Origin: Astropecten irregularis
Lineage: Eukaryota; Echinodermata; Asteroidea; Paxillosida; Astropectinidae
Assembly: GCA_963971285.1 (NCBI GenBank)
Contig: OZ020246.1
Location: forward strand, 17,343,217 to 17,407,216
DNA length: 64,000 bases
Direction of reading: 5' to 3'
Part shown: piece by piece, positions 3,501 through 64,000 of the stretch
Position numbering within the stretch: the stretch's first letter is position 1
How the letters are laid out: every line of letters begins with the position of its first letter
The notes under the pieces: generated by a model
Seen by the model: the letters and a program-made list of their open reading frames with translations, nothing else
Told to the model about the DNA's origin: nothing
Databases searched by the model: none
Program-made: the position numbers and the translations under genes

Positions 3501-6500
3501 CATTTCATTGAACGTCGTTGAATGATCAAGAACAAATTTGTGAGAGATCAAGGTATTGCAAAAACAACACAGGGAACTGTGAGGGAAGAGTGATGGTCCA
3601 AATTGACATTTGAACGTGACAACTCTGAAGGTGTTCCTACCTGAAATGATGTCCAAGCTCGATGCTTGGGGTGATGGGTGGGAAAGACACGATGGTCGTA
3701 CCGTGCCCGTACGCCTGAAGCTTGATGGTGCGTGTCTGGCTATTCTCAAAGTTGATGGCGAGTTTGTCTTGGAACCTACGGAGAAGACGGACATTCTCTT
3801 TTTGGAAAAACAGATCTCAAAGGAACCATTCACCCCCGGGCAGGGACAGAGGTTTATAGTGACAAAGCATCTTGTCTAAAGATGCATGCACCAGTGACCA
3901 GGCTATGATCAACTGCAGTACCTATTGCGATATTGGATTCAGATAAGCAGCTAACCCCAGAAGCCAATTTCATAGAGCTGCTTAAGCACAAAATTTGCTT
4001 AAGCAGAATCACGAGGCACTACAGAGAAAGATCAAACGGTTCAAGTCAGGGGATATGATGCTGGCTGGAATGCCAGTACCGGCACCTGCTGATAACAGTG
4101 AGTATTACCATCAAGGGCCAATTTCATAGAGCTGCTTATAAGCACAGAATTTGCTTAAGCATGAAAAAGTCTACCTTGATCAAATAGGATTACCAAACAA
4201 ATTTTCATGTGATATTTAGTGCTTTTGACTTGTATTCAGCCATTGTTTGCTGAGCATAACTTTTGTTAACACTTTGGGAAAAGTCAACCTCATAAGCAAG
4301 CAGAAGCCTTCTGTTGTTCTGAAAGCCTATTGACTCAGATGATTAGGGAAGATTGCACGTACCTGATGCAGTCATCCAGGTTGACAGTCAGCTTGAGGTC
4401 CAAGCTATCCTCTGGTGGAATGACGGAGTCCCTAGGCTCCACCTGCCACAGGGAGTTGGGCCGCATCTGCAAGACAATGTCATAGAGTCATGAGAATAAT
4501 ATGCAAGACTTGGATTTGATTCAAGAGTCTCGGACTTCATTGATAGTACGTACCTTTAATGAATATAAAATTGGTAGGTTTTCTTCTGAATAAGGCAGTG
4601 ACTAGTCTGAATATGACCCATTCTACTCTGTAACACTACGTACAAATATCTGATACACGCGTGCATGCAAAGTTTATGCAACGCAGCACATCAGCCAATC
4701 AGATCTATTTTGAGAACATTTCCTTCAGGATCGTGACGGAGAATGTCGATTGGTAAATTTTGCGCCTCCGCGCGGCAGCAGCTATCTTCGTGATAGACGC
4801 GCTCGCCAAACGGTATGATAGTACATGCACCCTGATTAGTAAAAACTTAGAGAGATCAGCGCTGGGTTGGTTTGCACAATTAATCAGGAAATCTGCACGT
4901 ATGTGATAGACGCTCACTTACTGCATGTTCGGCGAATACGAGTGCGTCTATCATATAGACTAGCTGTGACGTGATTATACCAGGAAAGTGCCTATGTCTA
5001 GACTTACCAGTGTGCATGAGAATGGAGCAGGTATGAGGGACTCGTTAGACAGGGTGACTATCTTGGTCACATCGGTCAGGACAGGGGTCTGTCCCCAGTC
5101 AATCTCAGTGGGTGTTACGTGCACAACTGGACCCTCTCCTATAGCCATCAGTTGTACTTGCTGTAAAAGGACATAGTCAAAAACAAGGATTCATTCCAAA
5201 CATTTTCCCCTATTAAAAAATAATCAGTGTCAATGGTGTTTTGCCAAATGAAAAAAGAAAACCAGGGGTCGATTTCACGAAGCCCTACGATCCATCGTAT
5301 CTCGAGTTACGAAGGATAACCATTGTCTTAAGCCCTATAACTGATAGCAAGTTATGAGGAGTTTGGTGAAATCGACCCCAGAAACCTTATAATGGATTTG
5401 TTCCATAGTTTAATCAAACATTTTGAGCGGAAGCATAAGCTGAGGTAGAGACAAAAACTACCTTGCGGTGGACTAGGTATTTCTTTCAGTTCCTATTTTT
5501 ACTATTTGTAAAGATACCACCAGTTTTGTTTTTTTGGATGGGGCTAATTTCATGAAGCTGTTAAGCACAAAATGTCTTGCTCAATATAACAAACCACCAT
5601 TAAAAATTCATGGTCAGCGAACAACAGCCAAAGTAACAATCACAAGTGATACACAACATATGGAAATTTGGATGTTAATCCTGTTTTAATTAAGACAGAA
5701 ATGTCATGCTTAATAGTGATTGGCCCAAACAAAAGTTTGCTAACAATGAATATCAAATCAAATTTTCAATGGTGGTTTGTTTTATTGGGCAAGCCATTTT
5801 TGTGCTAAGTAATTTTGTGTGCTAATTAGCATCTCTATGAAATGGTCCCCTGGTCTATCTGATTTCTCTACTGGATCCATGTGCAGTATACTGGAATGGC
5901 CTTGTGATGGGTGATGACTGTCATGAAAAAATCCAGTCATCAGCGAAATCATGCAGTCAGCTCTGAACCACAGACTTACCAGGGGTGGTTCGGTACTTCC
6001 AAATATGCTGAACTCAGCCACTGCTTCTATCTCTTCAAGGGCCTTGGGCATGATGACCAGAGGTACCTCGGCCGTGGAATGAGGCTCGATGATGCCAGTA
6101 GCCTCAGGGCTGGTGTACAACATCGGGCTCATGTCTTCAACATCCTTAACACCAAACAAATCAATGAAATGCAATTTTTAAGGAGTTTTATCATGGCATA
6201 ATTGCCTGGTCTCATTCAGACACAATGTGCTCTCTCAGTTGCCAACAGACAGCACACAGGTTAAGTTCATACGAGGGGTTGGTTTCCGGAGTATACTCCC
6301 AAATGGGAGTAGTCCCAATGACAAAAGTCCTCGTTGGGACAAACATTTTCAGCACTTCATGACTAACTTAAGAACTATGCCTGAATTGGGGAGTTTATGG
6401 TCGGGTACAGGAACCACTGCTGTGGGCATCAATTAACCGCAACCCAGTCCCGAAGCCATCATCCCCTCATCTGAACTTGCCCATAGAGTCTCTCTTTTCA

Positions 6501-9500
6501 GAAATGAGGCATGATCGAGTCACCAGAACCAAATCTCCTCTTATGCACAGAAATGTTTACAGATTTATGTATAACTTTCAGGATATGAAGATGGTGCTGG
6601 TAGAAACATATACTGTTAAAATATTTCTGCCTGAAATGCTGTATTTATCAAGAAATTAGTACAACAAAGACCGAAAACAGTTTTGATCTTGAGGTATATG
6701 GTCAGAACCATTTTTTATGTTTTATAAGAAAGATCGAGTCAGGTTTTCGCTATATTCGCTATATATGACTCAAATGTCTGATTGAGTTTATCATTTCATG
6801 TACATGCTGCATGCATCAGACAAAGTGTGTGGGCTTTTCTGTGACCTTAACCAATCATGTATTATACCTTTTTAATAATATAATAATTGTTAGTATTTGT
6901 ATTTTGAGAAAGCTAGCCTACCTGAGGCACAAGGTCATATTTGGCGGGCAGGTCCGAGTCATTGAACAGCCTGGTTTTCAGCTCATAGGGGTGGTCCAGG
7001 AAACATCGGGTGTAGTCCATGATGGGAGTCACCACCACAATGGCAGGCACGACGCACCTATCAAACACACCATACAGAATGGCAGTGCATGGATTTAATC
7101 ACGATCCAATTTCATGCAATAACGAAAATTAGGGTAGCACTTAAAGACTATGACTAGGAGAATAACTACATAAGGTTCTTACATAAACATCTTTACATAC
7201 ATGTACAGTGAAAGAAGTCAGTGTACCAGATATTGTTCAATTTTAACTTGCGAAAGGCATACAGGAAGTTAGAAAAGTTGTTGCACAATGCCAATCAATA
7301 GGAATTTAATATGTATTCATTCAACATTCCAACGACATCATTCTAGTGTCAGACTATATCCCTGGCATAAATGACCTAAGGACTCATATTGAAAGGATCC
7401 TACGGCACTTTACACCAGCTCATGATTGTAATGAACTTACTTTGCAGTGATGGGAAGAGCAAGTAGCTCTGCTCCTACCCCTTCCACATCAACAACTAAG
7501 GCCATGTCATACTTCTTCACACTATTGGACGTCAGCTCAACCTGTTGAATAAATAATAATGATAAAAGGCATTTAGCCTTCGATAAAGATTCTGCTAGGA
7601 TCAAATTAACGCGCCAGGCTCTAGATCCTAACTCCAAGCATAAACAGGAATTCAAACGTGCCGGACAGGCTGTAAAATGGAGAACAAATTCAATTTCAGT
7701 TGTTCTTTTCACAAAATAAGAGCAAGTAAGAGCTCTGCAAATGATGAAAAACTTTATCAGTTTTAGTTTTATTTCTTCTTAAAGGTAATATCATACTTTA
7801 GTTTTTGTCAAAGAAATGCAGATTTATGGACAGAATTTCAAGGAAGATACAGTAACAGTTATGTGTGAAATTTTCTGACCCACTTTTTGAGAAAACAGTG
7901 AAAAATGCCCCCATTATTTTAAAAATCTTTCACCGTTATTTTTTAAAATTTATTTAAAGATTTAAATTGTTTTTGTTCACTGGTTTTACTCTTTTCTGGA
8001 TACATACAGCTTTTCAGGCATAACAATTTTAATGGTATGTTTCTTACATCACCATCTTTATACTCTGTAAGTTAAACGTAAATCTGTGAAGATTTCTGTT
8101 TTGGTAAGCTTTCAAAGTATGATAGACCTTTAAATTACAAAACACAGGGTATACATACTTGAACTTTGACCTCACTCTGGGGAGGTATGGTGCCTTTGTC
8201 AGGAGTGATGCAGAACTCTGTGGGAGGAACGCTCAGGTTGGTGCGGTTTAGCGTAGGTTCCCCGCTGGTTGCTGACACTACTTCACCTTCACCATCACCG
8301 GGTACCCTCAGGTTAAAGGTCATGGCTACCAGTGAGGTATTGGCCAGGGTCACCACCCGAGTACTCTTGAAGCCTACAGAATACAATGGAAATGTTGTGC
8401 TGTATTAATGAATAGCAATCTTCTTAAAAATTATTCTTAAAAATTATTCTTAAAATTATTGCATTATTGCATTTCATTCCATAACCTTCAGTGTTAATGC
8501 AGAGTTGTAACCAAGTCAAATTTTCTCAAGTCAAGTCAAGTCTCATGTCATTTTGTTCCAAGTCAATTGTCAAGTCACAAGTCACTGCGTCAAAAAACAA
8601 GTCAAGTCACAAGTCATTTAAGTCAAGTCAAGTCAATCTTGAGAATGCAAAATGAGAAACATATTTTGAATAAAAGTAAATGCCTCGGTTCCAAAAAAAA
8701 TAATTTGGGTAGACTGTTTTTTCATTTTAAACACTATATTTTATGGGCCTAGCTTTGTACTTATTGTGCTAGACATTTACTTTTATATCTGGGACAGATT
8801 TCACTAACGCTTTGCGATCATCGCTAAAGCCCAAATCCATCACTAAACGGAAAATTGATCGCTACTTTGCAAAACAATTTTCCATTTAGCGATGGATTTG
8901 GGCTTTAGCGATGATCGCAAAGCATTAATAGTGAAATGGGCCCCAGAGTTACACATTGTGTCTCTACTGCAAACAAAACAACATGGTTTTCCACCAGGCA
9001 AAGCCATAAACAATACAATCAGGGACAAACAGTTAATTTTTGGAATGGCTTTTTAATTCACAACGCTCACCGTAGGACACGGTTCCAAACTTCAGCTTGG
9101 GCTGGTCAAAGTGGAATGTCGGCCCGATCACATTGCCGCGGAAGTTGAGCTTGAGTTTCTCCGGCAGGCCCACCACCGAGCAGAAGAAGTCCTCGTCAAA
9201 ATCCCCCAGCATCGGAGAGGAGAAGGACACCTTGATTGCCTGGTGGCCGCCCGGGGTCACGATGCCCTCACTGGGACTGAAGTGGAACCGGGGGCCGAAG
9301 GTGGTCTGGTTGGGCAGGAGGTTGAAGGTGGCGTCGATGTCACCCTGATTGCTGAGGACCACCTAATTGCCACAGAATATTACATCACCACGATATATTA
9401 TCAAGTTCTTTTAAGTTAAAGGAATAAAATGCTTGGAGTTAGGAGGGCCTGAAGCGTTTCGTTCCAAGCAGGATCTTTTTCAAAGGCTTTAGCCAACGTG

Positions 9501-25641: not shown

Positions 25642-25820
25642 TGCTGACCCACCCCCACCCTCAACACTCCCTGAGGGTGGGGGAGAAGGCAAAGTATGCA
25701 AAATGCCTGATCTTAAGCAACAACAACAGCAACAACAACAAAACATACCAATAAGCCTTATAACAGTTAGCAGCAGAGTATGGTACGGGCTCCAATTTGA
25801 TTCTTCATGGGATGGCACCT

Positions 25821-26055
25821 GGGGCCAATTTTTAATGGAGCTTTGTTAAGCACCAAAAAAACAAACTTAGCACAAAGCACAAAATGTCTTGCTCAATAAA
25901 ACAAACCACCATTAAAAATTCCATTTGATATTTATGGCCAGCAAACTACAGCCAAAGAACAATCACAAGTGATACACAACACATGGACATTTGGGTGTTA
26001 ATCGTGTTTTCATGAAGACAGAAATTGTTGGTGCTGCTAAGCAGGACTTTGGAAT
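25821..26055 (+). mobile_element. MITE of the 5535 type in PRELID3 3' UTR
   Basis: GGGGCCAATTTTTAATGGAG to TTGGAATTGGCCCC, with AAACAAACCACCATT and GTGATACACAACA inside; it lies 180 bases after the stop codon, so it is probably in the mRNA. Confidence 0.7.
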
Positions 26056-26481
26056 TGGCCCCAGATGGGATTTTTTTTCTGGGCATATACCTTGTCATGC
26101 CGTTACCTCTGTGAAGTTCAATATTTGCATATTTTGTGAAGTCTCAAGTGTGATATCTTCTATGCACACCGTCGAAGTTGGTGCTCACAGTGTGTGGTTT
26201 ATTGAATTTTTTTATATTTTTTTTTTGGGGGGGGGGGGGGGGTTGAAGCTGCCAAATATGTTCCTTCCCATAATATAATGTAATAATAGAGATTTACTGT
26301 TACCCGACTGCTGTTTCATGAGTTACATTTATTTAATAAGGTTTAATAGTACCCATGTCTCGAGTACTTGAATTCTGTCGCTGTTTCATGATTGTATTTA
26401 TGTAATGAAGACTTTGTCTTTGACAGCACAGAATACGGTAATGGACCTTAATGGATTATGAACCATGTTTTTATCAATCAA

Positions 26482-29744: not shown

Positions 29745-32700
29745 TCAAGAATTCTTAATTCTGTTCTGCTCAAACTGCACCACAAAATCCGCATTAGCCT
29801 CTGCAATATTCCTCATCTCTTCATTCAGGCCCCTGGATGACTTCAAGTCCTGAGGAAAACAAAAATCATCAAAAATTGTCAGACACTTTCTCTATTAAAG
29901 GTAGTATCATACTTTGGTTTTTGTCAAAGAAATACAGATTCATGGGCAAAAATATCAAAGAAGATAGTCAAAGATACATTAACCATCATCTGTGAAAATT
30001 TCAGTCCCATACGGTGCCGACTTTTTGAGAATACAGAGAAAAACGCCCACAGTATTTCTTAAGTCTTTTCTCTTTTATTTTTGATCTTTAAAAGATACAT
30101 ATACATGTAATCCCATACCTTGACATACAGCTCTGCCATTCTATACAGTCGTTCAGTGCAGGCTTTGTAGCAGGCATTTTCCTTGGTAATCCCTCGGCTC
30201 AAAATTGTTTCTTTGACGACCTGTCGCAGTTTCTAAGTAAATGAACAAATGACACAATGCTTTTTATGATTGTCCTTAAAGGTAATCTCATACTTTGGTT
30301 TTGTGAAAGAAATGTAGATTCATGGGCAAAAATGTCAAGGAAGATGCAGTAACAGTTATCTGTTTTCAGTTTTCAGTCCCATACGGTGCCCACTTTTTTA
30401 GAAAACAGTAAAAATGTCCACAGTATTTTAAAATCTTTTCACCGTTATTTTTGATCTTAGATCAAAATTATTTTTGGTTATTGGTTTAATCTTTTGGGGA
30501 TAAATACAGGATTTAAGTCAGGAATGTTTTTACCATTACCATCTTTATACCCTGTAGGTTAAAAGTAAATCTGTGAAGACTTATGTTTTGGTATGCTACC
30601 AAAGTATGATAGTACCTTTAACATCATTAGCAATTTGGGAATTGATTTCATCCAGATCAAATTCCATAAACCCTCTACCATGTCTACTGACTTTCTGTTC
30701 CCTATGTGGTTTATTTTGGTAACTATCAATTTCATTAATGACAAATTTGGGAGAGAAGTCAAACTTGAATGAAGGGCACAAATCATTCCTACCATCCTTG
30801 TTTTCTCTGAGTTGGACAGCTTTCTTGGCTTTGAGCTGGACATAGATGTCGCTGCTTTCTGGTCATCCTCGGACGTCTTTGCAGCAAGGGGCTTTCTATC
30901 TGGCTTCTCTTCTACCATAACTCGCTTACGCGGTGACGTTCTTGTTGGCAGTGCTAGTCTGAGGGTGTAAATATCATTTTTTTAAAGTGAACAATGAAAA
31001 ATAGACTGGAGCAGGATTCGAACCAGCAACCTCTGGAACACCGTACCGGTGCTCTTACCAACTGAGCTACCCTATTATGGTAGCACGAGGCTGTATACTT
31101 CCAGGGAGCTGAGATTGTTTCAGGAATGTAAATGGGCCCGACGACCAGGGATAATAATAGTGTAAGCACATAGAGACTTGCCCCGCAATATGTCATGCGC
31201 TCTATAAAAACTGTTGATTACTTGGTGCCCTTTAAACTGGTCAAAAAAGGAATTCTGCAGGAAAGAATCAAGCAAACTATGTACCTTTTCTGCGGCAGTG
31301 TCACGGGAGCCTCATCAACCTTCCTCTTGGTACCGCTAGCAAGTCTTTTCCCAGGGCTGAACTTGTGACCTCTTTCCAGCGAAATCCTCCGTCGTTTCTC
31401 TGCTGACCTCTGTCCCTTCAAGACCCTCTGTGCTCTCTCCACTGACCGCTGAGCTCTCACAGCTGGCCTCTGCTGCTGCCCTCTTTCGTCCGACCTATGG
31501 CCCCAAGAGCCCTGACCGTCTTTGCGACCTTGGCCTCTGGCTTTCCTGGTTGCAGGAGTGGGATCGGTGGCTGAGGCTGCCTGTGGGAGTGTCAGGGTTG
31601 CAGGTGATGCAGCCTGCTCAGAGGAGCAGGTTGATGCCGTCTCGTAGCGGATGTAGCGCTGCTGCATCTTGGAGAAATGCCGGTCAATCTGCTGGCTTCG
31701 CCCCGAGTCTAAGCAGTACCTGATAGAAAATGAATTTGACAATTTAGCAAATCAGGGATAAATAGTGCAAGCTAGCTGCAAAAAAAATTTGTTATGTGGA
31801 CACAAGAATAACAAATTGCTAAATTTTTTGCTGAAAACATGCTCTCTCAATGGAAATTGTGAAAAGACATAAATAGTGCCAATGTCATTAATCTCGCAAC
31901 ATCCCTCAGTTTTTCCTATATTTTAGTTGCAAATTTTTCATTTTAAAAATTCTTTGGATGATAGGCTCATCAAATTTAGTGATAACAGCGGCATCTACTA
32001 AACAACTGCTGAGCTCCCAAATATGGTGACACATCAACAAGAAATTAGTAAGATGTTCCAAATCATCCCGTAACTTACTGAATTCCCGGGAAGGTGTACT
32101 TCTGCGCCTCCTGAAAGGTGGCCTTCTTGAGGTCGCTCCAGGCCAGGCTGGGACAGATGTTCCGTAAAGTACCCCCACCGGGTCTGTCTGCAGTTGCTGT
32201 GGAGACCGGAGAGAGATCCTCCGTGGTCGGCAGACCGCTGGCCTGGAAATGCTTTAGGAACTCATCTGCTGTTAGTGTAATGGCTGAGGAAAAAAAGGAA
32301 ATGAACTAGGAAGATTCAAACCAACACTAATACAGAAGCTGCTTCAATCTGTCAGGATTATTCTAGACACCAGTGAACATGTAACTCTTGCTTCTTTGCT
32401 TCTAACAGGGCTCCGCGCTCGAGCCATTTATAAAATATGCCCTTTGTATCGATAGCTATAGTTACCTGGATGTTCGGACAATGTCGCTGCTATGGGACAT
32501 ATAATAGCGACATAAAACGAACACAACCACATGATAAAATGTGTCTGCACAACGTGAGATGTATTTTCATGAATGGTTGAGCTGACGCCATTTTCTAATT
32601 CCATGATGTAATGGTACGACTTGTTTGTCCAAACGTCCGAATGTGACGCCACGAGTGCGGAGCCCTATTCTTGATTGTAATACTCACTGTTATCAGCTGG

Positions 32701-35700
32701 TGCCGGTACTGGCATTCCAGCCAGCATCATATCCCCTGACTTGAAGCGTTTGATCTTTCTCTCTAGTGCCTCGTGATTCTGCAGGGCCAACCGCTGCATC
32801 CAACTTGACGGACTCAGATCGGATTCTGGAGAAAACAAAATGTTGAAAATACGATATTGTGATGAATTTGTTCGTCGGAAGACGAGGACGGATGGAATAA
32901 AACAATCCCACCGCTGGCACCAATTTGTGATGAGTTCGGCCGTCGGAAGGCGAGGCGGATGGAATAAAACAATATCACCGCTGCTACCAATTTGTGATGA
33001 GTTCGGCCGACGGAACGCAAGGATGGATGAAATGCAACAATCCCACTGCTGCCACCAATTTGTGATGAGTTCAGCCGTCGGAAGGCAAAGATGGATGGAA
33101 TAATGATCAACGAATGAAGATTTTACATCATACCATGGAATAACTAATTTATTTCACACAGATTAGAGTCATCTCAACAATCATCTGTTTAAACCGTCTG
33201 TCAATGTTCAAAGTAATAACACATAATTATAGCAAGGGTTTATTCTTAATATCAAATAAGAAACAAAACAATCTATCACAACATCAGAAGGGAAAAACAG
33301 GTGATCAGTGTCACGCGATGTCATGTTGCTGGTAGTGACCTGTAAAGACATCAGCGGCAGTTAAACATAAATGTACATAGCCAGGAATTTGTCCATTAAG
33401 AAACATCCGTGGGTGAATAGGTTCAAACCTCCCTGTCTTAAGTCATCTCTTTCTTACCTGAAACAATGTTTCTGCTTCCCAAGTCATCCTCTGTATGTAC
33501 ATGTACACCATCATTCACATCTGCCATCTGTGACATTTCATCTATCTCAGCCATGACGCTGGAATAAACGGTTCCCATCAGTAGCTGCAACTCTGCAAGG
33601 GTGATGGCTGGTTCCCTGCCTTCCTGCCTCCTTTCCTCTTTTTGACAAAATGACAAAGAAATAATAATAATAATAATCGTTTGTAAGACTGGCAATGATC
33701 TAGCAACAGCACTCTCCTGTCTGTACATGCTTTATAGCAACAGTCAAAGCCGTTAAAAATTGAATATTGGATAATACTTTGGTAGCATACCGAAACAGAA
33801 ATCTTTGCAGATTTACCTATAACTTACAGGGTATAAAGATGGTGATGGTAGAAACATATCGTTAATTTTTGTTGCCTGAAATGCTGTATCTATCCAGAAA
33901 AGAGTAAAACTAATGACCCAAAACAATTTTGATCTTTTAAAGATAAAAAGTTACAATGAAAAGATTTTTAAAATACTGTGGGTGTTTTTCACTGTTTTCT
34001 CAAAAAGTGGGCACTGTATGGGACTGGAATTTTCACAGATTACTGTTAATGTATCTTCCTTGATATTTTTGCCCATGAATGTGCATTTCTTTGACAAAAC
34101 CCAAAGTATGATATTGCCTTTAATTCTGACCCAAGTTTAATTTTTGCATAAGTGTATCTGTACTGATGAAGCATAGACCACACATAGCTACACGCTTAGC
34201 AACAGCCATAGCCGTTAATTCTGACCCAACTTTAATTTTTGCATTAGTTCTTAAAGTTAAGAAGAGACTCACCAATGAATGTCTTGATGGCTTCAGCTTG
34301 GGCTAGTGTGATAGTCTCAAGAAGTCTCTGTACCTGGCTCCCATCCAGACAGGCAACTGTATTCAATGCAGTGTCCACATTCTGGCATTCTATAGTTTCA
34401 AAATTAGACAAATCTTGTTTCCCATCAATCAAATAACGTGCACAAGATATAAACATGTAAACAAGTTCAAATAGTAACTACTGGAGTTTAAAGGGCATAT
34501 ATAACATTGGTAATAAACCAAAACAGAAATGTTCACAGATTTACGTATAACTTACAGGGTATAAAGATGGTAATGGTAGAAACATACTGCGAAAATTGTT
34601 CTGTCTGAAATGCTGTTTTTATCCAGAAAATAGTAAAACCAAACACCAAAACTTTATTTGATCTTCGGAAGATCAAAAATGAGACAGCTATTTCCACACA
34701 ATTTGGCGTAACAACTGCAACGGGTTTTCAGTGTTTTCTACTGTTTCCAATGATCAATTGAGCTGAAAATTTCACAGGTTTGTTTTTATTCCATGACAAA
34801 TCAAATTATGAACAGACCGCAGCTGCTCTGTCAACGTTACCCATGTTGTACATGCCATTTAAATGGATTACCACAAATTACAACAAATTGGAAAACACAA
34901 GTTTTAATTCAACAAATTTCAAAATTCAGTGGAGCAAAATGTAGTTACCGGTACTCAAAAAAAAGGTTGGCGTCATAAAATTGCTTTGAAATATTTAAGA
35001 GTCTAGCTGTAGTTAGGAGATCATTATGCAATGGTGCAAGGGCTTTGACAATATGACATAATCTGGACTCAAACCTCTTTGATTCAAATGAGTACTATGG
35101 GCTGCAGGTAATTTCATGAAATGTTGCGTAACTTACGCAACATACAAATGTTGCATAAGTCTCGGAAACGGGCATAACTTGTGCAACCAAAGGCAGGAAA
35201 ATGTTGCGTAAGTTACGTTGAAGTTTTGTGAAATCAGCCACGGGACAAAAACTGACCATCAAATGTGAGTGACTGTTGGTACTCTGACAGCTGTGCGTGC
35301 ACCTCTCCAGTCATTTCCTGGGGCGAGTACATGACTTGGGCGATAACCTCTTGACTGGGGCCTGGATTGCGGTGTACAAGGAGATAGAAGAATTCTTGCG
35401 TTTCCCGCAAATGTAGATCAGGCACTGAAGATGAATTCGCGAAAAATAAAGAAACAATTACATTATTCAGATCGTTCAGTCTGATTCGGTAATATAATAA
35501 CCATCAAATAACCATGAGGAAAACTGACTGAATTATAAGTCATTTAAAGGTAAACAAAGGTAAACAAAGGAAAACTAGAGCGGGATTTGAACCGGCAACA
35601 TCCTGAAAAACATGTACAGGTGCTCTACCAACTGAGCTTTCAAGCCCTAAGTTAGTGGGACGCCACCATCATAGCACTGATAGCTCAGTTGGTGAGATGA

Positions 35701-38700
35701 CGGCTACTTCACTCATTCAAAGTCAAGTGCAACAGCCTGAAAGAACTTCCTCTCAGTTGGTTGACTTTGTTGACCAACAAGCCTCTGCCCAGTGAAATCC
35801 CCCAAGGCAAGTTACTGAAATCTCAGCTACAGATGCCTCCACAAGGGGCCAATGTCATGGAGCTGCTTAAGCACACAATTTGCTTAAGCATGAAAAGTCT
35901 TCCTTGATCAAACAGGATTACCTACCAAATGTTCATGTGATGATGTTTACTGCTTTTGACTTGTATTCAACCATTGTTTGCTGAGCATAACATTCACAAG
36001 GAGTTTTGGCTGGCATGCTGATTTTATTTACATGTACCAAAGTTTTGGTGCTTAAGCAAATTTTGGTGCTTAAGCAGCTCTATGAAATTGGCCTCTGATC
36101 TTACCTGTCAAATCGCTTGCAGCTGAGTTGTTCTTAATGTGGTCCTTCCATGCTTTGGTGCTCAAAGATCTTGTACTGTGAGTGCCCAGTACGAGTGTCC
36201 GACATCGAAGCCTCATGATCACCGCTGCATCGTTGGTCTGCCCAACCTCCGAGAGCCAGCTCAAGAAGTGCTTGGATCTAGGCAGTCTGACGCCTGATAA
36301 ATGCTGTCTGGATCAGGGGGTCAAGGTTCATGTGTCTAAATGTTCAAGAGGCCTTTCTCAAAGCTCGGCTCAGGCTCCGGCTTTGTCTCTGTCATCCATA
36401 TGCTGAAAATATAGGTTGTGGTTTTTCATTAAAGCTGAAGCTCTGTTTTCTTTTTCAAACCAGAGAATCTACTTCCGAACTGCAGCCAAAAGTCTCTATT
36501 TTGATGCTCGTTATTTTAGAATGGATTCACGACATGGAGCTGGAGCTGGAGCCTGAGTCGAACCCAGGGTTTGGGAAAGGCCCCAGGACCGCAACTTAGC
36601 ACTCTACAAGCTGAAGCATGAAGGTGTTGACTCCCAAGCCATGCCCACGGGATATAGCCAAGTCAACTTGCTTGATGCTAGTATGAATGCATCTTCTATC
36701 CATTCAAGAAATGTGCAGTTGAGATAGCGGGAGTGCTACCGTAGTTTCCTACATTGCTGACATTGGTTACAAAAGCAGGGCACCAGTCACCATGGAGAGA
36801 CCTTTTCCCCCTAGTTTAGAAAGGATACAGTGACAGGGTTACCGGTGATAAGAAGGCACTGGGAACACTTGCTCGACAAACGGTGCAAACCACTTCAAGT
36901 TGTCTTGAAAAGGTCACAATCTGTAGATGATCAAAGGTTCACAGTTGAGGAATGAATGCAGAGTAATGACAAAAAGGTGGATAAATTGTAATCATTTTCA
37001 AGAGGAGACAGCACTGACCTTCCTGGCTGCTTGTGATTTTGATGTCTTCATACCTGGAGATGCACACACGCTAGCAGCATCTGTCTTCTTGAGGAGGATC
37101 TGGGGACTGTCGTTCCGATGAGGGCGTAGGACAAAGCCTGGAAGAGAAAGAGATTTTTGGCCCTGAAAAAAATATATATTATTCATAAAAGTGAATATAA
37201 AGGGTTGTAAAGACATCATTTCAAACACATCACTTCAGGAAAAACCTCAATAAGACTCTCCTTAACTTCACACTTTGGTTTTTGTAAAAGAAATACAGAT
37301 TCATGGGCAAAAATATCAAGACAGATACAGTAACAGTCATCTGTGAAAATGTCGGTCCCATACAGTGCCCACTTTTTGAGAAAACAGTAAAAAACGGCCA
37401 CAGTATTTCTTAAGTCTTTTCTCTTTTATTTTTTTATCTTTTAAAACATCAAAAAGATTTTCAGGCGGAAAAATGTTAACGGTATGTTTCTACCACCACC
37501 ATCTTCCTGTTAGTTATACGTATAAGTTATAATCTGTGAACATTTCTGTTTTGGCTTCTCACCAAAGTATGATGTTTACTACCTTGAATGTAATAACCCT
37601 AAATAAACCTAAAATGAGAATCAATAATCATAAAAACAAAAATGTTCAACTTCCCATGAATTTTCCCGTAGTTGGTCTATTATACCTTTCCATCAGCAAG
37701 AACTACTTCACCACGCCACGCTGTATCTTGACCGAGCACCTCCATGACCGATTGCTCATCCCCGACCAATCTCCCATGAAGATGGTTGACCCATGCAGAC
37801 AGGCAGCCATCATACATGTCATAATCTGGTCCTATGGAGTTTGAATCTTGCAGGACTACAGTGAGATGAGCACCGTGCCATGAACACAGTCTCTGCAGCG
37901 CTCCATACAGAGAGATGTGATCATTGATAAGAGCATCAGTTGTGTCTGTTGCTAGCCATATGACGTCTAAATAGTGCCCTGTATGCATCAGAGAGAAGAT
38001 AGGGATTTTAGCCACCGGACGGATCACCTTTTCATGTTTTATTTCTCCGATTGTCATTTACTGTCACAAATGCATACGGGCAGGAAGGATACACTAAAAT
38101 GTGATCCTGAGCAGCTTTTACATGTAAGTGCTGAAGCACTAATTGCATTCCTGAAATAAACAGGCCCTATATATTTGACTGTAGGCTTACCTGTGGCTGG
38201 TAGCTTGTCTGCCAATGCATGGATCAGTTCAGCAAATTCATTGTCCTGCTCACTTAGAACAAACAACAAAACAAAAACCAAATCAAGTGATACATATGTA
38301 CCCAAAACAGCTTCTATTTTTACCATATTTTGTTTTGTACATCAGACACCATGACCCATTTTCTAGTCTTATCATTGCACCTTTTTTCAGCCAATTTTCT
38401 TTCTTTTTAAGTTTTTTTAAATCACATTTTCACATTATTTTGTCCTAATTATTTTTTATCTGCGCACACATATCAAATTATTCAAATATGTATCTTAGGC
38501 CAAACAAAAATGTGTCTGTTTAGAGTACAATCCAAGTTACCTGAAAATTTTCTAGCCAAATTGCAAACCTCAAGTTTTATCTACAGGAAGGAGATTGACC
38601 AATGATAGAAATATCTGAAAACAACTGACAGGTACGTGGCATAAAAATCTGAACTCTGAAAATCTCCTATACTTTTGTACACAACCTGTGATGAGGAAAA

Positions 38701-42940: not shown

Positions 42941-45900
42941 ATGGTAAAGCATGGCAAATACTGTCTCTCAAAATTCAAGTAGTTGTGGTCGTGAACGATC
43001 ATTTATGACAGTTTATTTTCGAAAATGTAAACTTAATCAAGTTCCTAACAAGACAGAGTGTGTTTTAAATGCCGGACTGTCGAAGGAATCATGTATTTTT
43101 GTTGAAATTCTTTATCAGGTTTCGCACACGATTTGCTATACCTTTGCCACATTGGCATTGCCCATTTTACGGACAGACCGTCACGGGGTCGGGGTCTTTT
43201 TTACTAGTTTTAGTAAACGCAGTGGCTATCGTTACGGCAGCCGTAACGCATTTCCCAATGGCTATAGTTACGGCACTGTAACTGCGCACGCGCGATGGCG
43301 GCGTGTTTTAGCCGTAACCAATATGGTAACGTCTATTATTTTTACGGCAGTAGCACTGCGCAAGGGACCAGAGTAATATTTTGTCTTCTCAATTTTTCTT
43401 TTGATTTTCTTCTTTTCCGTTTAACGTTAGATCCACGCCTAGATTATTTGTTTGTGTTGTTGTGGGTGTTTTTTGGTAAAACATGGAGGAAAGAAAGTAT
43501 TTTCCATGGGAAACATAATAGGTAATATCATACTTCGTGGTCGAATACATGCAGATTCATGGGCAAAAATATCAAGGAAGATACAGTAATTAACAGTTAC
43601 GGCAGCCGTAACGCATTTCCCAATGGCTATAGTTACGGCACTGTAACTGCGCACGCGCGATGATATGTCAGATTGCTTCGAAGCTAACGTGTTTTGTACA
43701 CGTGTGGGTACGCATAGGCCTTTATTACCGTCGTAGCAGTCAAGGTTTGACGGGTAGACATGGCAAATGCTCTCGTTGTGGGCGGGGAATTGTCAGTGTC
43801 AGCATGGAGGTAAATCTACCTCCATGGTGTCAATAACAGAGTGGGAAAAGGCCACATGTATACCTTTTTTAGTTTTTTAGTTTTTTAACTTAGGTTGCCA
43901 TCATGCCGTTTTCGAAAGATGCTGTAGACGATATTATTGTACATGCATGTACAGTACTTTCCATTTAATTTATGCTTATTTCAACTACCTCAACTCTATA
44001 GGGAAAAATGTGCAAACTTGGATTCAATTTAATGGATGAATTATTTTTATGGAGTTATTTTCGGTGTTGTTCAGAAATAAATAATATTTTACATTTAGGT
44101 TATATTAAGTTTTAGAGCTCTTGCTTTCTTGGATAATCCGAGTCAATTTGTTTAAAAGAAAACTATCATAGAGCATCAGTCCTCATAGAGACCTTGTGCA
44201 AAAGTGGGCACCGTATGGGACTGAAATTTTCATAGATGACTGTTAATTACTGTATCTTCCTTGATATTTTTGCCCATGAATCTGCATTTATTCGACCACG
44301 AAGTATGATATTACCTATTACGTTACCCATGGAAAATACTTTCTTTCCTCCATGTTTTACCAAAAAACACCCACAACAACACAAACAAATAATCTAGGCG
44401 TGGATCTAACGTTAAACGGAAAAAGAGGAAAATCAAAAGAAAAATTGAGAAGACAAAATATTACTCTGGTCCCTTGCGCAGTGCTACTGCCGTAAAAATA
44501 ATAGACGTTACCATATTGGTTACGGCTAAAACACGCCGCCATCGCGCGTGCGCAGTTACAGTGCCGTAACTATAGCCATTGGGAAATGCGTTACGGCTGC
44601 CGTAACGATAGCCACTGCGTTTAGTAAAACTAGTAAAAAAGACCCAGACTAAAACTTTTACATGCAGGCCTAATTTGTTATTGATTCAGTAGCGATAAAA
44701 ATTTGTTTTTAATTGTCACAAAGTAGGTATGTGACAATCGTTCATGTAAACTGTGTGTCTGTGGCACCAGCCACTTTTTCATGACATGTATCAGTGCGCA
44801 TGGTGAGTGTGCTGTTATTGACTCTGCACAAATTGCCCTTTCATCATCATCTTAAACCACCAAACTGATGATATAGTAGACAAATTTTTCTTTCTAATGA
44901 TTTGCAACTTATAATTTTCCGTTACTGGGAAGTTGGGTTTTTCTTTGATGGAAGACGAAGGTCAAACATTACATGGAAATTCTTCCTAAAGGAATGTATG
45001 CATTTGTCTTAAAACTGTTTTTCTTGTTAGTATATTTATTAATCAACATTCAGTTCAAATAGGAAACAAATCCATGGACCGAAACCATGTTTTTGACCAT
45101 GATAATTGTGCAAAGGTTGTGAAAAAATACATTACAAGTGACATAACTGAATATGGTCAATCCAACTACTGGTGAGCTAACCAGTGTTAATTAATCATTA
45201 ATCAAAATTAATACTCATTAAAGGCCTAATTAATAAAGGATATTATCACCTTCTAATTGTACTGGTTCTATGCATTTATATGTTTTTTACCCCATTTAAA
45301 TACATAAAAAAACAAGGAAGTTACAATAACTTTTACAATGACATTACAGCCTGGTTAAAACAGTCAAAACGGTCACATTCTGTCCCATTCGTATCCATGG
45401 TGAATGATGGACCAATTTCAGTCGTGATTTAAAAATCAATAAATTATGTAACTTTCTTAATATTTGGGCTATGAACTTGGTTCTGGTGCCATTTTAAAGC
45501 TAATTTTATGCTCTTTCCAAAAATATAACTGACTAAGAGATGTCTTGGTTTTGAAATTTTTTGTCACATACCTACACAAAGTTGTCAAAGGTTTTGGAAG
45601 TTTTTTTAGAATCGGATGAAATGAGAAATCATGAGGTGTAAAAAATATGTTTTATTTAGGCTAACGTTAGGGCCTACTTTTCAAAACAGGTGCTTCTAAA
45701 AAATAATGTGATTATGGGTGCATTCGTTTAGCTAACACGGGTCAGCCCTTACTGGGAATGGTCGTGCTATACTGCACAAAACAAGCGAGAGAATGGGGAC
45801 GAGGTTGAGAAGTGTCGACCCGGGGGAGCTAAACGAATGCACCCTTACTAAAAGTAGACCCAGTAATGTACCTGGGGCGCTGAACTCCCTTTTTTAATTT

Positions 45901-48349
45901 TGGGGTTGACGGTCAGTCTAGCGCCCCAGAGAATCCCATAGCCCTAGATGTGTTGTACACAGAAGAAATTGTATTTCACCCAAGTTCACGGGGACATTTT
46001 CAGCGCAAGTACCGTGAACTTACCGTGAAATACATTTTTTTCTGACTGTGTACAACATATTTAGGGCTATGGGATTCTCTGGAGCTTTAAAAAAAAAAAG
46101 TGAGTTCAGCGCCCCAGTCACTGCGTCTATGTTAAAAATCATGTTAGCTTCTGAAAAATATAGGCCTTTCCCTTTTCATGTTAGGGGCCTATGTGTTCCG
46201 ATCTTTTTGACACGATTTCTGCTTTGTAGCCCAAGGTCTCAACTTTCAAGTTACCGTAACTGTTTCCGTCTTTGAATCTTCTCTTTGTTACAGGTTTTCA
46301 CACGTTTTGTGGAGATTGGCCGTGTGGCCTTTGTGGCTGTTGGCAGAAACCGGGGAAAGCTATGCTCCATCGTTGATGTCATTGACCAGAAAAGGGTAAG
46401 CATGTCATGACATCTCCTAGTCCTTACATAAAAGTTTTGGACATCTTAATTATTGTCTCACTTATAAAACTAACCTTTAAACCATGTGAAAGAATGTGGT
46501 CATGGATATTTTGTTCGTTAATAAAACCCATTATTTTAAGAATCAGGCATACTGTCCATTTACACTTCCCTAAATGTTTGTACTTAACATTCGGGACAAG
46601 TTGAAATCAATTGTACGAACCAACAGAGAAACAAATTTAAATTAATTTGAAAACAAGCACATTGTCATCCAATTTGCCTTGGTTTGATGTGTGGGTAGGC
46701 GCTTGTGGACGGACCATGCACCAAGTTCCCTCGTCAGCAGATCCGCCTGAAGAAGCTTCATCTGACCGACTTCAAGATCCGCATCCCACACTCTGCCCGT
46801 ACAGGCACCGTCCGCAAGGCTTGGGAGAAGGCAGACATCGAGAAGAAGTGGCGGGGGACAACCTGGGCCAAGAAGCTGGCTGCCAAGAAGAGGGTAAGTG
46901 AGGCAAACAGTAGCCATCCAGGGGCCAATTTCATAGAGCTGCTTAAGCACCAAAATTTGCTTAACCCTAACCCTCCTCAATCCTCCAAAATCCTTCTAAT
47001 AGTTTGGAGGATTTCGGAGGATTCAGGATATAATGTCATTTTCAAGTGAGGACCACTTGAGGAGTTGCAAGGATTCAGGATAAACGCATTTTTTGAGGTA
47101 TGGCCACCGAAGGATTTTGAAGGATTCAGGATTCAGGTACCTCTCATTTTGAGTATAAGTGAGATCACTGGAGGATTGAGGAGGAATGCTGTTTTTTAAC
47201 TATGTCCCTATGAGGATTTTGAAGGATTGAGGAGGGTAGTTATATAAAAGGCTCAAGTGGGTTAGGGTTAAAGGTTTACTGTAATCAAAACTCATATGAA
47301 GGTAAATACATCTGTATTGTTAAAACTCAACGTGTCTATCATTGTTTGTGCTAAAAAAAAATTGTATAAAGAAAAAAGAGGTAAAATTTTAGTGAAAAGG
47401 GGCATACCCTTTTAGTTGAAATTTGCATTTAATTTTGCAATCATTAAGAGATCAATTCATAATTTCATACCAGGAAATTTCCTTGCAGAACCAGCCAAGT
47501 AAATAATGCTTTATTTGTATCCTGTTAGAAATTCTTGAGGACATCTAAATGAATGTAAAAGAACAAAATGATGATTGTAATGTATTGAAAATTGTCTTGT
47601 AACACTTTTTATTTCAGAGGGCCAACATGACAGACTTTGACCGTTACAAGCTCATGAGAGCCAAACAAAAGGTAGGCTTGAATGTGTTTGTTTTTCTTTC
47701 CTCGGGGTTAGGAGGGAGGGCCTGGCATTTTGATTCTCGCAGAATCTTTCTCAAAGGATCTTAAAGATCTTGCTATAGTCAAATGTCAGGCCCTTTTGTA
47801 ACTTGGAGCATTTTACATACATTTTGGTTGATGATAAGGTATCAGCAATGCATTGTTTGAATTTATTTAGGTAATTAGGTTGATATTTAACTTACATTGT
47901 GACCTTTTGTTATTAAACTGGAAAAGTTTATGAAAGTTCTTTCTTGAGAAGAAGTGATACACATTTTAGCTTTGAGGGAAGATGGAAAAACAAGGCTACG
48001 AAAACTTTCCTTGTGAACAAAATCTGTGCATTCTACAATTTTGTGGCTCAGTTTTCTGGGAAGATAAAGTGTGTTAAATGATTTTGAAGATAACCAGATT
48101 CCACAGGTTTTTGCAAAAAAATAATTGTTGTGACCTTTTAAGCAACATCTAAAATTTATTTTGTCAGGCTTGCTTTTGTGAGTTAATGCCTAATGTCTAA
48201 TTTGCCTACAGGCATGAGTTTTACATCATGTAAGACTTCTAATATTCCCCTCTTTCTTCAAATCTTGTTTCCTGCAGAGGACTCGCCTCATCAACACTGA
48301 GGTGAAACAACTGAAGAAAGCAAAGAAGGCAGCAGCTGCTGCTAAGTAA
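42941..48349 (+). CDS. RPL14: 60S ribosomal protein L14 (eL14)
   Basis: Exons 42941-42943 (ATG only), 46294-46395, 46699-46893, 47618-47671, 48278-48349, all phase 0; 141 aa. Exons 2-5 are unmistakable: [55 protein letters not shown] and [10 protein letters not shown], then a lysine/alanine tail. It is a structural protein of the large ribosomal subunit with a KOW-type N-terminal domain. The long C-terminal alanine/lysine expansion of mammals is missing, as usual for invertebrates. The assignment of exon 1 is inference: ATG|GTAAAG sits at a TOP-like start divergent from MTBP, and mammalian RPL14 also has only the ATG in exon 1. Intron 1 (3.35 kb) holds two large mobile repeats. Confidence 0.93.
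43192..43597. repeat. Left arm of 406 bp inverted repeat (RPL14 intron 1)
   Basis: Starts GGGTCTTTTTTACTAGTTTT and pairs with 44645-44239 at about 97-98% by eye. A sub-block GCAGCCGTAACGCATTTCCC is directly repeated at 43602-43664, just inside the arm. The arm includes part of the TTAA-flanked MITE. Its ORFs are incidental. Confidence 0.9.
44239..44645. repeat. Right arm of 406 bp inverted repeat (RPL14 intron 1)
   Basis: Reverse complement of 43192-43597, ending AAACTAGTAAAAAAGACCC. The loop between the arms is about 640 bp and holds an ATGGAGGTA hairpin near 43804. Transcribed with RPL14 it could fold into a long duplex. Confidence 0.9.
44724..45574. mobile_element. 851 bp twin element, copy 1 (RPL14 intron 1), 7 bp TSD
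   Basis: Perfect 14 bp terminal inverted repeats TAGGTATGTGACAA / TTGTCACATACCTA. CACAAAG is duplicated at 44717-44723 and 45575-45581. Interior is AT-rich, without any ORF that resembles a transposase. Superfamily not assignable; a 7 bp duplication is unusual (P and Dada elements are among those reported near this length). Confidence 0.88.
45716..45843 (-). mobile_element. GGGTGCATTCGTTTAGC MITE, copy 2
   Basis: Same element inverted (128 bp) in RPL14 intron 1; a diverged partial third copy begins near 56990. Confidence 0.85.
46960..47275. repeat. GGAGGATT-rich degenerate repeat in RPL14 intron 3
   Basis: Many variants of GAAGGATTCAGGAT and TTGAGGAGG; begins with TTAACCCTAACCCTCCTC next to a GGGGCCAATTTCATAGAGCT end (46921). 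Confidence 0.7.
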
Positions 48350-57229: not shown

Positions 57230-60200
57230 ATGTCGTTGGTACTGAATTTTCCAAGTTTAACGTTAAGCAAAACCGAAGCGGCTTCCAGTTTATTGCGACC
57301 ATTTCTGTGCAGATACATCTATTCACGCCTTCACAGGACTTTATCGTCTACATCCAATCATTCCAGGTATGCACAGTGCCAGTGCAGTGGCGTAGACATT
57401 CATTCCCTTCCCTGCCTGTACTTCAACTACTGAACTAGTTCAAAGTAATGTAACTTGAAGCTAAGGGGTACTCTCTCCGAACCCCGTGTTCACTCCCGTA
57501 CCGCGCCGTTTGGGAGTGAACACGGGATGGGAGTCCGCCTTACAACTTTGGAAAAATGGAAGTAGCCTAGGCGGTTAGTAGGCCTATGCCGCCCCCTGGG
57601 GGTTAGTGTCTTTTACGCCACCCATATTATTTTCAGTATTTATTTCATATTTGGTAGGTACGTGACAATCGTCCATTGTAAACTGTGTGTCTGTGGCACC
57701 AGCCACTTTTTCATGACATGCTTCAGTGCGCATGGTGAGTGTGCTGTTATTGACTCTGCACAAATTGCCCTTTCATCATCATCTTAAACCACCAAACTGA
57801 TGATATAGTAGACACATTTTTCTTTCTAATGATTTGCAACTCATAATTTTCCGTTACTGGGAAGTTGGGTTTTTCTTTGATGGAAGACAAAGGTCAAACA
57901 TTACATGGAAATTCTTCCTAAAGGAATGTATGCATTGTCTTAAAACTCTTTTTTCTTGTTAGTATATTTATTAATCAATATTCAGTTCAAATAAGAAACA
58001 AATCCATGGACCGAAACCATGTTTTTGACCATGATAATTGTGCAAAGGTTGTGAAAAAATACATTACAAGTGACATAACTGAATAATGGTCAATCCAACT
58101 ACTGGTGAGCTAACCAGTGTTAATTAATCATTAATCAAAATTAATACTCATTATAGGCCTAATTAATAAAGGATATTATCACCTTCTAATTGTACTGGTT
58201 CTATGCATTTATATGTTTTTTACCCCATTCAAATACATAAAAAAACAAGGAAGTTACAATAACTTTTACAATGACATTACAGCCTGGTTAAAACAGTCAA
58301 AACGGTCACATTCTGTCCCATTTGTATCAATGGTGAACGATGGACCAATTTCAGTCGTGATTTAAAAATCAATAAATTTTGTAACTTTCTTAATATTTGG
58401 GCTATGAGCTTGGTTCTGGTGTCATTTTAAAGCTAATTTTATGCTCTTTCCAAAAATATAACTGACTAAGAGATGTCCTGGTTTTGAAAATTTTTGTCAC
58501 ATACCTATATTTGGGTAATAATTTTTTTTTTACTGAAATATTGCCGAAATATGTTCATTTTTAGTCCGAGTAGGCCCTAACTTGGACCCTAAAAATTGCC
58601 TTAAAAAAAATAAACATTATTTTGGACATGATCTGGCGATTGCCAGATCATGTCCAAATGTTTAAAAAGGCGATTTTTAGGGTCCAAATTACTCGGACTA
58701 GTTCATTTTAGGGTTTAAATGAATACAAAATTTGCTTTAACTAACTCCTGAGTAACAAATTATAAATCTCATTTTGGAACAGAAGAAGCTAAATAAATAC
58801 TGAAAATAATATGGGTGGCGTTAGTTGCGATGATCGTAACCCTAGGTCTGACATGGGGACTGGCCCTAGGTCTGACATGGGGACTGGGACCTAGGGTTAC
58901 GATCATCGCAACTAGGGTGGCGTAAAAGACACTGTACTAACCCCCAAATGTTCATGGGTCCTGTAAACGTAAACATGGTAAACCCTTAAATGAACATATT
59001 TCGGCAATATTTCAGTTAAAAAAACAAACAGTTTTCTTACCCCAAATAAATACTGAATGGGTGGCTTAAAAGACACTAATGCCCTTCCCTGGGTGTAGTT
59101 GCGATGATAAATTTGGTAATCCTGGGTTTTAGGGGCCTAAATTATGACAGTGTGATACCCTGGGATGAGTTGGCTGAAGTTAGCGACCTCTTTTTGTATG
59201 ATTTACATTGTAACTGTTACATAATTTAGGCCCGTAAAACCCAGGATTACCGGTTTGTTTTTTGTTTAACCATGGTCTGGCATGGAATGGAGGAAGGGGC
59301 TCCAAGTTCCCATGTCAGTCCATTATGGATTACGATCATGCATCACAATGCACAACTGGCCTAGGCTAGGCTAGGCTAGGGTAGGGTAGAGGATGATCCT
59401 CGCAACAAGTTCAATGTTTGACGTCATTTTTTTAACTGCCAGTGTCATGCCAAAAGGTTTCCTTTGCCAAATAGTGTCCGCGGAGCATTTGCAGTGAAGC
59501 ACGGACACTTTTTGGCATGTATTGTAGTACTAGCCTATACATGCCAAATAGTGTCCGCTGCCAAATAGTGTCCGAGCATCGAGCACAGCCCAGTGGCGTG
59601 CGCATGCAATGCATGGTGCTTTGTCTTCGTGATTCCCATCAAAAACAAGTCAGTTCTATTCTTGCTTTCCGCACGAGTAGACAAAGTGCTCGATCATTGC
59701 TTGCGTGCAAATCATCATAATATATAAACTCTAAGGAATTTCCAAACAGCTATTGTTTTTTTTTACAGCCAATCAAATCCAAATATGCTAATTAGTGGAC
59801 ACTAAGTTGGCAACAGACACCTTTTGGCATGACACCGGGTGCCTCATGACACCGGGTGCTTGAAAATAATCCTTGTGGACTAAAGCACACTAACCCCAGT
59901 TAGATAAACTAGGCGTTACTATAAATTACTAAGCCTAGAGGGGATTGGTATAACGTAATCTGTGTTAGTTCTCAGCTTGTCAATATCAGCATGGGAGGTA
60001 CATGTAGGTCTAGCAAGTAGTACATGCATGGGGGTAGTACCAAAGAGCTACTCTATACTAGTAGTCCTACCTCCACGGTCAGATGGTAGTCCTATCTCCA
60101 GTAGGAGATAGGACTGTTTACCCAGTAGGCCCTAATGACATTCAAAGCTGACTGCAATTCCATGCAGTGGCATCACATCACAAAAAAGGAAACACACACC

Positions 60201-62577: not shown

Positions 62578-63805
62578 AAGACAAGATTATAGGTACAAAG
62601 GTCAACTCTTGTTCATTTTGATCACTGGATTGAATACTTGTCCATCACTATGGAGTCACAATCACATTTACAATACACAGAGGAATGTCCTTCTATTTAC
62701 ATATGGTTTTACCATAGAGTAAGGTTACAGAGTAGATTAGGCATAATGGAATATAAAAGATACACCACACTTGGTATTCTCCTCATTTCAATGAGATTGC
62801 ACAATACTGTACACGTTATTACACAATGCACTCTAAATATATGGACACAACGCCATTAAGCACTGATATGATTTTCCCCCATTATCTATGTTAATCATCC
62901 AGTTGTAATTATGTATGAGAGAGAGAGTGTTGTAAATCACTGGAATGGGTATGTAGTATTAGTGCAGTGTACATTAGTCTCCTATGCGATACAAAATACA
63001 CCCATGCTCACTCAACGAAGTAACACTTTTGTGCATGTAAACTTGTATAGGCCGTACATTAATTTTTATTAGCAATATTGAATCAAGGAAGTATGTCACT
63101 GATTAATTAAACGACCTTCACAACATTAACAATGCGTGATGTGCAGTTCCCTGGATTTTAATTACTTTCGTGTATAGAAATGAATCCTGGACAAGTTCAT
63201 GAAGTGAAGATATTGAAAAAACATAACCATGAAGGTAAAGGCTTCCAACAACTTGAACAGAATCATTTAGGCAAGTTTGATAGCAGTTAAAAGGAAAATG
63301 TATGGTCCGTTTCCCTCAACGAACAAATGAATTCAAATCGTCAAAGGTCTTACAAAACACGTACAATTGTACATAGTTACGTAGGCTCCCAGGCCTATAC
63401 ATACATTTTATTTTAAGTCTCCTTTGAAAGTAAAAAGAAAATGAAAAGTTTGAAGGTGACAAATTGTCTGCGGTTTTCGTCCGTGAATGCGTGGAAGCAA
63501 ACCACAATGCATACAAACTTCTGGAAACTAACGCATCCGGTATGGGCGGTTTTATTTTCACAGGCTTTTGGCCATTATTAGCCTTTTGTACAAAGTACGC
63601 AATCGACTGTCGAAAAGTGGCTACGTAAATGCGACAATTGTTCCAGCATGCACACGTGTAGTTCATGTGACATATTGCTTTCCATGAAGCAGCTTATTGT
63701 GATTTACTATAATTAATAGTTGCGAATGCAACGTATTATGCTTGAGACCAACCGTCACGAATAATGAAAATTATATACACTTCGGAATGTCCCTTCCTTG
63801 GGCAA

Positions 63806-64000
63806 ATTTCATAGAGCTGCTTAGCACAAAAAATTGCTTTATAGCAAAAAAATAGCTTGCTCAATAAAATAAACCTCCATTGAAAATTCCATTTGATATT
63901 CATGGTCAGCGAACAACAGCCAAAGAACCATTGTAAGTGATACACAAGTCACACGGAAATGTTGATGTTAATCATGTTTTTATTAAGACAGAAATGTCAT
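63806..64000 (+). mobile_element. MITE of the 5535 type, running off the window
   Basis: GGCAAATTTCATAGAGCTGC onward, with ATTCATGGTCAGCGAACAAC. Confidence 0.7.

Follow-up and report, generated by a model that had tools for sequence, protein, structure and literature searches.

In Pack-TYPE elements, as characterized in PMC8903248, pieces of genes are carried between terminal inverted repeats and become duplicated when the element moves. An animal case of transduplication, that of Turmoil-1 in C. elegans, has been presented by authors who regarded the transduplication of protein-coding genes as unknown in animals (PMC2572040). Double-strand breaks, too, can receive short pieces copied from elsewhere in a genome, as templated insertions or filler DNA (SDSA, MMBIR, class 2 TSIPs). 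In rice, fillers are given for 58 of 94 putative DNA-transposon excisions (mean 13 bp, range 1–123), SDSA is described as a source of such filler, and a random deletion that breaks exactly at a TE terminus is considered highly unlikely by the authors (PMC4423477). For chromosome 1 of lung adenocarcinomas, 103 template-switch insertions are reported, with 2–12 bp of microhomology (mean 3.7) at 80% of the junctions (PMC8421209), and class 2 TSIPs are described as patches of breaks, perhaps made from RNA (PMC5110952).

The locus described here has in common with Pack-TYPE elements and Pack-MITEs that a gene fragment, including part of an exon, lies next to transposon ends; it differs from them in having direct ends of one kind, no right end and no amplified copies found. 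It resembles templated insertions in that a short stretch was copied from another place in the genome, one junction shows microhomology, poly(A) is lacking and there is a single copy besides the donor; what sets it apart is that one of its junctions coincides with a MITE terminus and that the end of the MITE is duplicated as well. Polymerase-theta end joining is, we presume, a further kind of templated insertion or filler at breaks that comes close to this locus. The excision footprints described for rice resemble it in having a foreign filler in the 1–123 bp range at a base-exact terminus of a DNA transposon; since the left half of the MITE is still in place, the cut at our locus would have been incomplete or one-sided, unlike the excisions described there (PMC4423477).

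Results

The window (the whole stretch of 64,000 nucleotides of Astropecten irregularis DNA that was analysed) belongs to the 475.7-Mb assembly of 168 contigs that we searched, where its contig is named C9. Both HYDIN and MTBP lie on the minus strand of the window, the ORFs of which matched the Pfam families HYDIN/VesB/CFA65 Ig (1.9e-17), MTBP_C (2.5e-12) and MTBP_N (2.3e-9), and the HYDIN gene was also matched by HYDIN chains in the PDB. Three minus-strand HYDIN exons surround the locus, matching residues 842–889 (in ORF 4975–5190, E 4.9e-10), 893–923 (within 4350–4490, E 6.1e-4) and 923–968 (within 3630–3840, E 5e-4) of PDB 9ijj. These residue ranges follow one another in order, in agreement with the HYDIN-intron site proposed by an earlier, sequence-only reading of this DNA. 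The two top-scoring matches of the window with itself were a pair of direct repeats (44723–45574 and 57654–58507, 97% over 855 bp) and a pair of inverted repeats (43188–43597 and 44649–44239, 98% over 411 bp).

That reading had also reported an MTBP match of 113 bp with four substitutions and no indel, which BLAST of 3900–4400 against the window reproduced: 4003–4115 on the plus strand aligned with 32782–32670 on the minus strand over 113 bp (96.46% identity, 4 mismatches, 0 gaps, E 1.5e-49). The template (32670–32782, minus strand) consists of the last 95 nt of a 138-nt MTBP exon, the limits of which (32688–32825) are our own reading, and of 18 nt of the next intron. This donor exon, whose own peptide had no Pfam match at E 0.01, was assigned to MTBP by its position, the minus-strand ORFs on both sides matching MTBP_N and MTBP_C; its reading frame in MTBP is open. 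The copy differs from it at positions 20, 37, 85 and 107 of the piece, three of them exonic (one E to Q and two silent) and one intronic, and it keeps the intact donor splice site GTGAGT, as had been noted. Donor and copy lie 28.6 kb apart on the same contig. The coding sense of the piece is on the plus strand: its orientation is opposite to that of both genes, which makes it antisense to HYDIN. The Jukes-Cantor distance between piece and donor is 0.036 (4/113), a value summed over both branches, of which the MTBP branch is presumably under coding constraint. In the MTBP intron, 3 nt beyond the copied stretch, we also observed a MITE-like element (32407–32666) with inverted ends of ~15 bp (AGGGCTCCGCRCTCG, identified by eye).

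The ends that flank the piece belong to a family of ~240 bp which has the features of a MITE, being short, with inverted left and right ends and many copies, and which we take, as a lead, to be a candidate member of the PIF/Harbinger-like elements. An inverted pair of left and right ends is present in 20 of the 22 other loci retrieved with 3-kb flanks (L002–L008 and L032–L046, the exceptions being L006 and L034), loci that were chosen as best or pattern matches and not at random; the pair spans 360 bp in L036 and ~135 bp in L046. The majority left end reads GCACAAAATTT then GCATGAAAA, and the right end, which differs from it, GCACCAAAATTT then GCACCAAAAA. Both are found, in inverted orientation, in an element inside MTBP (35845–36093, plus strand) that served as the reference for the family in the window. 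A CWG trinucleotide precedes the left end in 17 of the 21 copies of a similarity-chosen set and in 9/15 of a second, pattern-chosen one. The MITE end had 0 exact matches in viral and prokaryote sequence collections, and a text search of a set of papers did not find its strings. Several other arrangements were seen among these elements. A related subfamily with GGGGCC..TTTCATAGAGCTG-like ends and a different interior occurs at 5540–5850, ~25815–26062 and 63800–64000. At L005:1380–1835, one MITE of the family is nested in another and has CTG on either side, which shows a 3-bp CWG target duplication clearly, and at L045:1570–1780 a MITE right end and its flank are duplicated in tandem with a 109-bp period. 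At 46921–47275, the sequence runs straight from a lone MITE end into a segment that has CCCTAACCC and GGGTTAGGGTT at its borders and contains repeated GGAGGATT words.

At the locus itself, all on the plus strand, a CAG flank (3958–3960), lying outside the first end and typical of the family (CWG), is followed by 45 nt of MITE left end (3961–4005), the GCA junction, ~110 nt of MTBP and a MITE that restarts at its first base (4115–4263). The first end begins with AA where the family has GG; from 3963 to 4005 it is identical to a left-end form at 43/43 positions, and its best match is to the left and not to the right end. The second MITE, which comprises the left end and the 100 bp that follow it, matches the left part of the 35845–36093 element and lacks the right half. 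Its match with the family ends at ~4263, all 39 other long matches listed stopping at query positions 307–315 (314 corresponds to 4263), and 4240–4420 has no match in the genome besides itself. Close to the piece no MITE right end was found; beyond 4172, the next ends found in the window start at 5797 and belong to the related subfamily. The sequence-only reading had described repeats on both sides of the piece. MITE ends do abut both borders, but they are two direct copies of the same, left, end and not an inverted pair: CCAATTTCATAGAGCTGCTTA occurs at 3964–3984 and 4118–4138, identical and on the same strand (7 matches in the window at ≤3 mismatches, 0.01 being expected), and the left occurrence is the outer part of the 45-nt end, which at its inner edge has GCA in common with the piece. 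The outer left end is preceded by CAG and the inner one by CAA, which is MTBP sequence.

The two end copies differ by 1 substitution and one 2-nt gap over 45 columns, the second having an inserted TA and a G in place of A. The TA form was found in 1 of the 21 similarity-chosen copies (L022), and TTATAAGC in 8 of 15 other loci from a pattern built on it. Further variants are shared with the second MITE copy by L039, L045 and L046 (one) and by L045 and L046 (two more, these two loci aligning over 53–58 bp only). Most of the pattern-matched loci have no further variant in common with this copy at the substituted columns; we rejected the TA insertion as the marker of a separate MITE lineage and read it as recurrent slippage. 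Given their differences (AA/GG tip, TA, A/G), the two left ends need not be copies of each other, and the variants that this copy shares with L039, L045 and L046 make two separate MITE sources possible. Relative to the family majority, the second MITE has 7/146 differing positions, the upper limit of the 2–7 found in 21 other copies. From these counts the patch may be of similar age to the MITE insertion or younger, the numbers being too small for more.

At the left junction, MITE (TTAAGCA-TGAAAA) and MTBP (CCCTGCA-GAATC) have GCA (4003–4005) in common, and the copy reads TTAAGCAGAATC. At the right junction, MTBP (ATCAAG-AATA) and the MITE terminus (GGGCC) have one G (4115) in common, and the copy reads ATCAAGGGCC; the second MITE restarts exactly at its terminus, with GGGCC at 4115 as in the family. 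By chance, microhomology of at least 3 nt would be expected at ~5% of joins and of at least 1 nt at ~44%, so that the right join is uninformative. There is no poly(A) at the insert, and the repeat around it is the 45-nt MITE end, not a short TSD. With respect to a TSD around the whole composite, CAG is present on the left; as the right terminus was not found, a matching duplicate cannot be placed.

A search of 3950–4330 against the assembly, which had been suggested as a check for mobilised copies, gave 72 matches with the best 40 of 2917 candidates scored, so that the MITE counts are lower bounds; among these, the whole stretch was matched by the locus itself only, and the other matches were parts of the MITE. 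The MTBP piece alone gave 2 candidates in the 475.7-Mb assembly, both scored, and 2 matches, namely this locus and MTBP. No second locus with the piece, besides MTBP and the one described here, was found in this search, in which sequences composed of very common words can be overlooked and strongly diverged copies could be missed. As controls, an MTBP exon stretch (31250–31660) and a HYDIN exon stretch (9060–9355) each matched only themselves genome-wide.

Discussion

We consider that this arrangement probably originated as a one-off templated insertion, that is, a filler patch laid down while broken DNA was being repaired at the left-hand terminus of a MITE in the HYDIN intron. Once this terminus of the resident MITE had been broken, the flank-side end would have copied 45 nt of the left end of a MITE, with the sister chromatid, the homologue or another MITE copy as the source, slipped at the GCA microhomology onto the MTBP exon 28.6 kb off, copied ~110 nt of it in inverted orientation and finally been ligated, with a 1-nt overlap, to the free MITE terminus at its first base. 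We infer DNA as the template and this order of the repair steps; a transposase cut would be the likeliest cause of a break exactly at a MITE terminus. Such a scenario would account for the duplicated end, the outer CAG, the absence of CWG at the inner end, the resumption of the MITE precisely at its terminus and the fact that there is a single copy. It is in line with the same-end direct repeats that flank the piece, with a CWG on the outer end (CAG) and not between MTBP and the second end (CAA), and with the low numbers of changes that separate the piece from its donor (4/113) and one end copy from the other. The insert is near-identical (96.5%) to a distant donor that stays in place, and its joins are microhomologous or blunt (GCA, 3 nt; G, 1 nt), with no short TSD or poly(A). 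Against it, the CWG rule has 10/36 exceptions, the right join has only a 1-nt overlap, the two left ends are not identical, the TA form recurs at other loci, further variants are shared with L039, L045 and L046, and 110 bp is close to the maximum filler length reported for rice. Rearranged or nested MITE ends exist elsewhere in the family (L005 and L045, read directly; L036 and L038, from the table of ends only), and a disorderly, multi-step origin is possible.

The sequence-only reading had favoured the capture of the piece by a Pack-type MITE. We rejected this on the basis of the same-end direct orientation, of a second MITE without its right half and of copy number: the fragment does not lie between terminal inverted repeats, and the composite was not found at more than one locus in the assembly search, which may miss very diverged copies. 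A wrecked Pack-MITE, in which the piece would have been captured between inverted ends and the right end lost on the arrival of a second MITE, is quite unlikely. MITE ends do adjoin the piece to its left and right, and nested insertion is known in the family (L005), but there is no inverted right end near the piece (those from 5797 on belonging to the related subfamily), no second copy in the assembly search, no CWG flank (CAA instead) or right end in the second MITE, and no MITE interior between the piece and the second terminus, which it abuts exactly. A nested MITE insertion into a captured piece was also rejected, since in L005 the inner element has both ends and CTG on both sides, which is not the case here. 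It would be still less likely, to a degree that we regard as very low, that independent events produced the locus, the MTBP piece having inserted beside a MITE remnant and a second MITE later next to the piece; these MITEs are numerous (2917 first-look candidates, of which 40 were scored) and an indel and substitutions separate the two left ends, but several coincidences at base resolution would be needed, and the second MITE shows no CWG flank and no right end.

An RNA-templated patch, similar to class 2 TSIPs, in which unspliced MTBP pre-mRNA was reverse-copied into the break, appears unlikely, although it has arguments in its favour. Pre-mRNA also spans exon and intron, and class 2 TSIPs, as described in PMC5110952, have neither TSD nor poly(A) and are proposed to use RNA. 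Hence, the claim that the piece crosses a splice site and so moved as DNA was right about the crossing and too strong in its conclusion: unspliced pre-mRNA crosses the site too, and with class 2 TSIPs perhaps RNA-derived (PMC5110952) the crossing is no proof. The 28.6-kb distance of the donor fits local template switching on DNA at least as well, and a second template, the MITE end, was also used. Finally, the locus is known from assembled sequence alone, but an assembly or chimera artefact is extremely improbable, as the copy differs from its donor at 4 sites, and is therefore not simply the same sequence placed twice, and the HYDIN exons continue on both sides.

As a templated insertion, the locus would most likely represent a real but ordinary kind of genome scar and not a mobile gene-carrying transposon. 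A piece of an exon next to transposon ends is not necessarily a Pack element; it is the orientation of the ends together with the genome-wide copy count that tells capture from repair scar. We also entertain, as a rather improbable variant, that the locus is the frozen first step of a Pack-type capture in an animal, in which, through template switching, a neighbouring exon was drawn into a transposase-made break at the terminus of the MITE. If this were true, the exon could have become mobile by way of the outer left end, provided that the right end of the MITE had been retained, and gene capture by transposons would be tied directly to filler repair. With donor, acceptor and MITE family all in view, the event could be dated by comparison with a relative.

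We saw no apparent function for the product. The suggestion that the piece might act as a cryptic exon is weak, given that 43 of the 138 exon bases and the exon's 3' splice site are absent and that the piece is antisense to HYDIN. More speculatively, the pre-mRNA of HYDIN would contain 95 nt antisense to the MTBP exon, with 3 mismatches.
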